Below are positions 33,345 to 35,627 of a stretch of 42,336 bases of DNA, piece after piece. The stretch's first letter is position 1; each line of letters starts with the position of its first letter. Location of the stretch: positions 1-42,336 of the forward strand of contig JAIYDQ010000158.1 in the NCBI GenBank assembly GCA_027487375.1, written 5' to 3'. Under the pieces are notes generated by a model. It did not search any database, had not been told where the DNA came from, and worked only from the letters and a program-made list of their open reading frames with translations. The translations under genes and the position numbers were made by a program. The DNA comes from Planctomycetaceae bacterium. GTDB taxonomy: Bacteria > Planctomycetota > Planctomycetia > Pirellulales > Pirellulaceae.

Positions 33345-35090
33345 TTAGGCGCAGACGACCCGAACAAGCATTTCTTGCTCGTCGGTCCAAACGACTTCGT
33401 TCCAGTCGACCGCGAAATCGGGGTAGTGGTCGGCAAATTCGCGAATAAGGTAGGATCGTTTGATGGCCGGTGAATTGACGGGCGGCATTCGGCAAGCCCG
33501 ATCGAGGTTAGCGGGGCTGACCATTTGGGGAATATCCAGAGCTCGAACCAGTTGCCGAAAATAGCCGCGGTTATCCAGCTCATGAAACTTTAGGTCGATC
33601 TTTTTCAAAGCAGCCCAAGATGACTTGGGTGCCGACCGATCCATCAGCCATCGCTTGCTGAACCAATCGACACGCCCGAGCAACCACTTTTGCGACTGCT
33701 CGTCGGAATCACTTTCTTGCAAATGGTCTAAAGTCTCTTGCCAGGCCGAAAGTGCGGTCCTGGCTTCTTCAATCTTGCTAACGGCTGTCGACGGCTGCAA
33801 CTGGGAAATCATCAAACGAACGGCCCCTGCATACTGGCGTTGGATATCAATTGCCGTCCAAACAAGTCCTCGGCTATCTGCAACTGTCCGCATTAATGAG
33901 CTGTCCGTCGCGATGGATCTAAGGGCCCGAAGTGGATTTTTCAGGCACGGGAGCCCTTTTAAACGCCCCGATTCAACCAAGTCCAAAACGAGCGTCGTCG
34001 TTGCTATGCGAATGTATTGACTTCGTTCGTTGGGAGTCGAATCACCAAGGGCGATCTGAATTCGTTGGGTCGCTTGGAACATATTACGCCAAGCTTGAAA
34101 ACTCCAAGTGCGATCAGCAAGCAAACCGGTAAGCCAATGCCCGGTGACGAATATCGGCGACTCGTTCCAGTAGCTTCCGAAACCGATCATCGAATTGATT
34201 TTGGAAGCTCTCGCGCTCAACCAAAACCGGCCGTGACGATCGACGTGACCACTCCCTTCGACAGCCGATCTCGAAGCAAAGAACGCTCCAAGCCAACGTC
34301 GGTGAGGCACCAAAGTGAACATCCAAATCAGACAATGAAAGTACATGGCTATTGGCCAGTGTAACCATCGCAACCCCGACGCTAACGTAAGCATCCACGG
34401 TTCAGCTTTTGTGTAGGGAGGAGGCGAGCTTGAAGGCGTTTTGGAGTTAATCTCACTACCAGAGAATCCGAGATCCACTTGAGGCCGAAGCGGACGAATT
34501 ATTCGAGACCATCCCGAAAGCAAGCAGGTCCAAGCGACGGCAAACAAGCGATAGAGAACGAGCATTGGAAGCATCACTAACAATCCAACGCGCCACATGG
34601 CTAGCCTCCATCCTTGGGCGATTCGGACCTCATAATTCTCGTGCTGCCCGTAAGTGACTCCGCCTCCATCTGAAGAATTTTTGAGCCATCGCGCATCTGT
34701 TTGTGGCTGAAGCTCGCTCAAGCTTTCGACCATCCATCGGTCAAGCACTGTCTGGTATCCGATTAACTCAAGCGGCGAGCGGCATTCAGGGGTAGCGACC
34801 TCGATAAGCCCGCCACCGTTGTGATGTGTCCCGTTGGTCTCAACCCCGATACAAGCACCATTGGCAAGAAACACGCGATACATATGCCGGCTTGATGGCG
34901 CCGTGGGCAGTCGCTGCTTCAGCCATGGGACAAGCTGATCAAAGATATCAAAGGCGGAGAATGTGCTTGATGAAGTACTCGTGCCTGTCGAGTGCCCGCG
35001 ATATAAGCCGTATTCTGTTTCGATTCCAACTAAGCGAGACAGAAGCGAAAAACTACTCGCCGACAGCTTCCGCTCGCGAGTTCGCCACAT
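33345..35090 (-). CDS. PafA/Dop family protein (Pup ligase/depupylase homologue) with membrane segments
   Basis: About 581 residues from ATG at 35090 (a TTG at 35123 would add 11). The blocks of the Pup ligase/deamidase family occur in order: VGIETEYG near 21-28 (metal-binding Glu pair), FLANGACIGVE at 74-84, EVATPEC at 97-103, GQHENY at 148-153, SRSAVEGSGHV at 273-283, and GDSTPNERSQYIRIATTTLVL at 349-369. The C-terminal domain has GRVDW and LKKIDLKFHELD. The family has a glutamine-synthetase-like fold and joins or removes a small protein tag at Lys side chains. Two features are odd: hydrophobic segments near 168-191 and 242-261 lie in an insert after HENY, and E84 occupies the place of the family's catalytic Asp, followed by extra residues NGTHHNGGG. 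It overlaps a 59-codon upstream ORF. Confidence 0.88.
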   Translation of the reverse strand: MWRTRERKLSASSFSLLSRLVGIETEYGLYRGHSTGTSTSSSTFSAFDIFDQLVPWLKQRLPTAPSSRHMYRVFLANGACIGVETNGTHHNGGGLIEVATPECRSPLELIGYQTVLDRWMVESLSELQPQTDARWLKNSSDGGGVTYGQHENYEVRIAQGWRLAMWRVGLLVMLPMLVLYRLFAVAWTCLLSGWSRIIRPLRPQVDLGFSGSEINSKTPSSSPPPYTKAEPWMLTLASGLRWLHWPIAMYFHCLIWMFTLVPHRRWLGAFFASRSAVEGSGHVDRHGRFWLSARASKINSMIGFGSYWNESPIFVTGHWLTGLLADRTWSFQAWRNMFQATQRIQIALGDSTPNERSQYIRIATTTLVLDLVESGRLKGLPCLKNPLRALRSIATDSSLMRTVADSRGLVWTAIDIQRQYAGAVRLMISQLQPSTAVSKIEEARTALSAWQETLDHLQESDSDEQSQKWLLGRVDWFSKRWLMDRSAPKSSWAALKKIDLKFHELDNRGYFRQLVRALDIPQMVSPANLDRACRMPPVNSPAIKRSYLIREFADHYPDFAVDWNEVVWTDEQEMLVRVVCA

Positions 35091-35232
35091 ACTCAATCGC
35101 TTCTTGACCGCACTCTTCGCCAACGGACTTCACAAGCCTTTCTAGGATCGATTCGCGTTCATCGGCAACCACTTGTGATGGGTCGCGTTGGATGTCAGCG
35201 TCGCCTATCAAATCCCGTTTATTTTCAAGCAT
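35053..35232 (-). CDS. 59-residue acidic protein ending Gly-Glu, candidate Pup-like tag
   Basis: An ATG at 35230-35232 opens 59 codons ending with TAG at 35053-35055. GGAG lies 11 bases upstream of the ATG. The chain is acidic (15 Asp/Glu, 7 Lys/Arg) with no Trp. Residues 1-22 look disordered; about 24-53 (ERESILERLVKSVGEECGQE and beyond) should be helical; the C-terminus is ...AEAVGE. Pup and UBact share this build: about 60 residues, flexible, a C-terminal Glu (or Gln to be deamidated) joined to Lys by PafA. It overlaps the start of the PafA/Dop-like gene by 38 bp, suggesting coupled translation. No sequence match to Pup or UBact is claimed beyond this pattern. A chance ORF is possible. Confidence 0.5.
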   Translation of the reverse strand: MLENKRDLIGDADIQRDPSQVVADERESILERLVKSVGEECGQEAIEYVANSRAEAVGE

Positions 35233-35627
35233 AAGCCTATCATCTCCGAATTCTAAACGACTGCTACTGAGAATACTAGTTTTTGTTTTTCATTATCGCA
35301 GATCGCCATGGCCCTACCAACTAGCCGCCGACCATCTACAGAGCAAAGTCACAATTTCAAGCTGGGTAATGAGCCGTGAGCGCTAGCTCCGGGTTGCTAT
35401 GGGAAAACCGGGAGCTAGTGTTCGCGGCTCGATCCATATTCTGAAGAATTGACTAGCCCTGCGACCATCTAGCCACCAGATGCTGAAATCTTTATTCTCT
35501 AGACGTGCCAACTGAGTATTGATGGTACGGGCGATGCTTGAAGTTGTCATTCCAATGGTGCGACTTACTACATCAAGATCGCTTCACAATCTGAACTTAT
35601 TCTCACACATGGGTGCGAAGGCTAACA
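35233..35627. promoter_or_regulatory. divergent promoter region between the Pup-like locus and fabI
   Basis: About 395 bp. It holds the palindrome at 35371-35430 (listed separately) and should contain promoters for both directions: the minus-strand one between 35240 and 35365, the fabI one between 35440 and 35610. No gene was recognised. Confidence 0.45.
35371..35430. repeat. imperfect inverted repeat, about 23-bp arms
   Basis: The left arm from 35371 (GAGCCGTGAGCGCTAGCTCC GGG) pairs with the right arm ending at 35430 (CCGGGAGCTAGTGTTCGCGG CTC). Of 23 positions, 18-19 match exactly, and most differences keep G-U pairing in RNA, as if the hairpin were conserved. The loop is about 14 bases. 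It lies between divergent promoters, so it is not a terminator for either gene. Confidence 0.7.

Follow-up and report, generated by a model that had tools for sequence, protein, structure and literature searches.

In the Pup-proteasome system of the actinobacteria, the tag Pup is served by PafA, Dop, Mpa and the 20S proteasome. UBact, found in Nitrospirae and others, is likewise a short tag that has a terminal Glu and is encoded near a PafA/Dop homolog. A further arrangement was predicted by Iyer, Burroughs and Aravind, who recognized Pup together with a membrane-inserted PafA in Rhodopirellula and Plesiocystis, unlinked to proteasome genes (Iyer et al. 2008, PMC2588565). Their Pup sequences, which include previously unannotated pup ORFs, have the C-terminus G[EQ], and they described four membrane segments in PafA, placed after core strand 4, and suggested that membrane proteins are modified (PMC2588565). 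In Hecht et al. (2020, PMC7947786), a PafA/Dop homolog that is present as a single copy in some Planctomycetes, and is about 30% identical to both PafA and Dop, serves as the outgroup rooting the tree. This outgroup homolog is probably of the same family as the enzyme described here. Our literature search returned nothing further on this system beyond these two papers.

We have analyzed a 42,336-nucleotide stretch of planctomycete DNA (hereafter the window) that contains a tag gene and an adjacent PafA/Dop-like gene. The pair resembles that of Iyer et al. in having a short, unannotated ORF with a G[EQ] end beside a PafA homolog with likely membrane segments and no linked proteasome genes, the R. 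baltica sequence being compared by its description only. Moreover, Rhodopirellula europaea (L166), a member of the same family as the window's organism, carries the same tag/enzyme pair. The initial annotation had put the ORF forward as a new kind of tag. Since Pup with a G[EQ] end and a membrane-inserted PafA had already been recognized in Rhodopirellula (Iyer et al. 2008, PMC2588565), that part of its proposal falls: the window tag is a divergent member of a system already predicted in 2008 and is not new in kind. There are nevertheless two differences from the 2008 description, in which Pup is always adjacent to PafA and four membrane segments are present, whereas here one clade has an unlinked tag and the enzyme model contains two long helices.

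Like its actinobacterial counterpart, the tag is mostly helical with a flexible tail and has a (G)GE end, and the enzyme has the ligase-type fold and active-site motifs. In contrast to the actinobacterial system, our searches found no 20S proteasome or Mpa, one enzyme takes the place of PafA and Dop, a Glu replaces the catalytic Asp, the enzyme has a hairpin insert, and the tag never ends in Gln and does not match the Pup profile. UBact (NF033388) shares with the window a short, Glu-ended tag gene near a PafA/Dop homolog, but the window's own genome has no NF033388 match, the Arg/Gln-rich tail is lacking and there is a single enzyme.

Results

The tag gene

The tag gene is located on the minus strand at 35053..35232 and, read directly as an ORF, has an ATG start and 59 codons, with the protein sequence MLENKRDLIGDADIQRDPSQVVADERESILERLVKSVGEECGQEAIEYVANSRAEAVGE, ending in Val-Gly-Glu. 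Both its length and its Gly-Glu end fall within the range expected of a Pup (about 50-90 aa, with Gly-Glu or Gly-Gln at the stop). The description of a genuine small ORF in the initial annotation proved accurate. A GGAG resembling a ribosome-binding site (35244..35247, minus strand) precedes the ATG by 11 nt and is shared by the sister genome L033, the product is acidic with a net charge of -8, and the predicted structure has a low-confidence N-terminal part (residues 1-17), a helix (residues 18-55) and then a short tail. The annotated overlap of 38 bp between the end of the tag gene and the start of the enzyme gene (35053..35090, minus strand, from the coordinates of both ORFs) is also correct if the enzyme starts at the ATG at 35090; with the TTG at 35123 as the enzyme start the overlap is 71 bp.

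Between the window and L033, which is of the same genus, the tag has a pS of 0.06 and a pN of 0.14, as against 0.55 and 0.04 for the enzyme. Because the synonymous sites of the tag are nearly unchanged, purifying selection at the protein level is not measurable in this pair. In other genera, pairwise counts yield a dN/dS for the tag of about 0.13-0.41 where the sequences are sufficiently diverged. For the check for purifying selection proposed in the initial annotation, the window pair has too few synonymous changes. At the DNA level the 3' half of the tag gene (35053-35150 in the window) is 97% identical to that of L033, whereas 55% of the synonymous sites of the enzyme gene have changed. Dual coding in the overlap with the enzyme start accounts for just part of this conservation.

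The adjacent enzyme

The neighboring gene (33345..35090, minus strand) encodes a protein of 581 aa with the ATG at 35090 as start codon, or of 592 aa with the TTG at 35123, which matches Pup_ligase PF03136 with 217 bits (cut-off 25; E 7e-64) over positions 1-440 of the 441 in the profile. It scores below the equivalog cut-offs of both PafA (TIGR03686, 133 vs 551 bits) and Dop (TIGR03688, 119 vs 492 bits). Its counterpart in the sister genome L098 (Planctomycetota MAG LacPavin) is 92% identical. There is a single PF03136 gene in the window's own genome, as in most relatives, and separate ligase and depupylase genes were not found there. Single absences from this genome carry little weight because it is 87% complete; a 99% complete sister agrees.

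The AlphaFold model of the enzyme (mean pLDDT 88) aligns with Dop at Z 42 and 26% identity and with PafA at Z 38 and 22%, both well above the YbdK-type ligases at Z 22. In the GhExE nucleotide and metal motif (G22-I-E-T-E26; 35013..35027, minus strand) residues G22, E24 and E26 are invariant in 40 enzymes, across which further acidic and basic residues are invariant too. By this model the enzyme has the PafA/Dop fold, and active-site residues are conserved. In the window enzyme, Glu84 (34839..34841, minus strand) aligns with Asp64, the catalytic residue of C. glutamicum PafA (HMMER alignment with 4b0t). The equivalent position in Dop is Asp94, which is thought to activate water (PMC8599861). 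Glu is found in this column in 39 of the 40 enzymes and Asp in the remaining one, and in the majority of the phylum-level relatives inspected the Glu lies within a YE motif.

The enzyme has an insert of ~100 residues, falling between positions equivalent to Dop residues 160 and 162, that is modeled as a hairpin of two long, mostly hydrophobic helices (enzyme residues 160-198 and 231-258; 34317..34613, minus strand, from hydropathy and the model). The insert is also present in relatives across the phylum. Its hydropathy and predicted structure indicate that the hairpin is likely a membrane anchor.

Conservation of the tag

We sampled 149 genomes from the same family, 72 of which contain PF03136, and extracted the DNA surrounding solo enzymes (about 560-640 aa) at 68 loci. 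Tag homologs are located upstream at 52 of the 68 loci and every one of the 52 has Gly-Glu at the stop, as compared with a background of GE ends of 0.8% among all ORFs in the same DNA. The upstream ORFs diverge at the N-terminus, are helical in the middle and share a constant end. Their bodies are mostly just 10-25% identical to the window tag, and G58 and E59 are invariant in the family alignment. The window tag is detected in its own genome by the family profile with E 8e-10, being itself part of that profile. Because part of the 52-tag set had been chosen by its GE end, the search was repeated with a body-only profile made from 12 seeds from which the last six residues had been removed. All 21 non-seed matches below E 0.01 end in GGE, again to be set against the 0.8% GE background. 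The one PDB match of the tag profile, to a cyclase-domain protein (E 0.003), is weak and internal in that protein, and was taken as chance.

Of the upstream tags, 35 end in GGE, whereas the other 17 have a different residue ahead of GE, the window genus having VGE. GGE ends are typical of a large sister clade within the same family. The initial annotation was right that the window tag has no Gly-Gly, although as a mark of novelty this feature loses its force, since it is a local relaxation. The final residue is Glu in all tags of the family and Gln in none. The class of C-terminus tracks the enzyme clade. This also holds in G006, G072 and G102, which each carry two solo enzymes, one of either clade, paired with a GGE tag and a QGE tag, respectively. 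Other families of the phylum have the tag/enzyme pair as well, with mostly GGE ends and, once, GAE. This last tag, at L184, ends KGAE, showing that the Glu need not always follow a Gly.

Tag and enzyme are found and lost together

A tag (E below 0.005) is present in 67 of the 68 genomes with an intact solo enzyme and in none of the other 81 genomes, and in the lone tagless genome the enzyme is cut by the contig end. The 149 genomes are related, and a Fisher value for this co-occurrence overstates the number of independent events.

Fifteen enzymes without an adjacent tag form one fully supported clade. Similarity searches of these 15 loci found no adjacent tag, yet a genome-wide search with a tag profile recovered a complete, unlinked tag in all 15 genomes, in each case ending in DGE, even though the profile contained none of these unlinked DGE tags. 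The neighbors of the unlinked tags follow the genus background. The comparison of orthologous loci, named in the initial annotation as a possible refutation, left the idea standing: the ORF is present with its terminal Glu kept or, where it is not adjacent, lies elsewhere in the genome. In genome G115 the enzyme is decayed (L090 2474-4258, minus strand), having lost E26, E97, D141 and D350 and kept 22 of 36 invariant residues, and a profile search of this genome found no tag. Tag and enzyme thus co-occur, co-evolve and co-decay. A chance ORF is ruled out by the 52/52 GE ends against a 0.8% background and by the unlinked, co-occurring and co-lost tags. No third partner recurs near the pair at the 68 loci, the commonest neighbor family being present at 6/68 in scattered positions and orientations.

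Proteasome partners and profile searches

Neither the 20S beta subunit (TIGR03690) nor Mpa (TIGR03689) has a match over cut-off in the 149 genomes, and the sub-cut-off matches look like HslV and FtsH-type proteins. The sole proteasome-fold match in the window's own genome (L032 1501-2001, minus strand, 33 bits) appears by eye to be Anbu-type-like rather than a 20S subunit.

The Pup model PF05639 matches none of 47 tags, nor any of six phylum-level tags, and has no match over cut-off in the 149 genomes, the C. glutamicum control being found. Likewise, the NCBIfam models, including NF033388, match neither the window tag nor 46 relatives, and NF033388 finds nothing over cut-off in the window's own genome. 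The expectation that ordinary searches would miss the window tag was thus borne out for both Pfam and NCBIfam.

Other PF03136 systems in relatives

Six relatives have a different tag-ligase system with two tandem PF03136 proteins, one of which has TPR-like repeats. Canonical PafA and Dop were considered for these tandem pairs and rejected; they constitute another, divergent system. In 5/6 of the tandem loci there is a 67-68 aa ORF ending in RRRNxSGQ, and the tags of this system lie at L070 4446-4724 (minus strand), L071 5444-5647, L072 1898-2104, L094 4243-4599 and L096 4331-4534 (minus strand). Neither the Pup nor the UBact model matches the two of these tags that were tested. Also encoded at L070 are a weak Prok-JAB protein and an AAA protein that is Mpa/CDC48-like. 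Genome G107 (L092) has yet another divergent PF03136 protein, preceded by a small ORF ending in CLSGE and followed by several genes, one of them for a 642-aa protein that is Lon-protease-like by eye and has no Pfam match (features at L092 5722-6084, 4278-5780 and 18-1943, all on the minus strand).

Discussion

We conclude, with a probability of about 0.8, that the ORF is a Pup-like modifier gene and that the adjacent gene encodes its single dedicated enzyme, which is most likely its ligase. The proposal of the initial annotation that the ORF is the cognate tag of this enzyme is upheld by the conserved terminal Glu and by the co-occurrence and co-decay of the two genes. By homology, the enzyme would phosphorylate the C-terminal Glu of the tag on its side-chain carboxylate at the expense of ATP, and the activated Glu would be joined to an amine, most likely that of a lysine in a protein located at the inner membrane. 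A deamidase would not be needed because the tag already ends in Glu. The hairpin would hold the enzyme at the inner membrane, making membrane or membrane-near proteins the likely targets. With no recognizable 20S proteasome or Mpa, the mark would either be non-degradative or be recognized by some different protease. Removal of the tag, if any, would be the task either of this enzyme or of an unrelated enzyme. A more far-reaching version, which we advance tentatively, is of a proteasome-free modifier system of the inner membrane in which one bifunctional, anchored enzyme both attaches and removes the tag, using a catalytic Glu in place of Asp, and the mark serves as a signal and not as a label for degradation (in a still more extreme form, the tag is attached to an amino-lipid).

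LysW is an amino-group carrier, and the tag could by analogy be a scaffold for biosynthesis, with a small amine joined to its terminal Glu and the product later released. A small acidic protein with a C-terminal Glu, together with a carboxylate-amine ligase of the glutamine-synthetase fold, would suit such a role, and small amines are the usual substrates of this ligase superfamily (PMC2588565). We nevertheless consider a carrier unlikely, given that no biosynthetic neighbor recurs at the 68 loci, that the fold of the enzyme is clearly PafA/Dop with small-molecule ligases at Z 22, and that the tag is modeled as a disordered stretch and one helix and not as a folded carrier.

The position of the hydrophobic hairpin beside the active-site strand, in the window, the family and the relatives across the phylum alike, would fit attachment of the tag to a membrane amino-lipid, as occurs with Atg8 in eukaryotes. 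The precedent of PafA is, however, protein lysine, and we regard a lipid target as quite improbable. It is also very doubtful that the enzyme is a Dop-like hydrolase, with a different, unrecognized ligase attaching the tag. The enzyme is slightly nearer to Dop than to PafA in both Z score and identity and has Glu in the catalytic Asp column, but it is the single PF03136 protein of its own genome and of most relatives, its Glu-ending tag requires no deamidation, and no other neighbor recurs at the 68 loci. That the ORF is a leader peptide, merely coupling or regulating translation of the enzyme gene whose start it overlaps in many loci, has next to no probability and is rejected for the family, since, for all the unusual conservation of the 3'-half DNA between the window and L033, 15 genomes have the tag gene elsewhere with its C-terminus kept, the tag in several loci stops about 100-205 bp ahead of the enzyme motif, and the tag is missing where the enzyme is absent or decayed.

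Reading the pair as a modifier and its dedicated enzyme, our analysis turns a prediction from two genomes in 2008 into a defined two-gene module spread over the phylum. New in this work are the extent of the family, the joint decay of tag and enzyme, the clade with unlinked tags, the Glu-for-Asp exchange, the relaxed xGE ends and the invisibility of the tags to the Pup and UBact models. Since these current models detected none of the tags tested, Pup-like modification probably extends further than has been appreciated. The module raises the questions of what the tag is attached to, why the enzyme would be at the membrane and what role a Pup-like tag has without a proteasome. Single-enzyme genomes could reveal whether a PafA/Dop-type protein is able both to ligate and to cleave, a point that bears on the origin of PafA and Dop.
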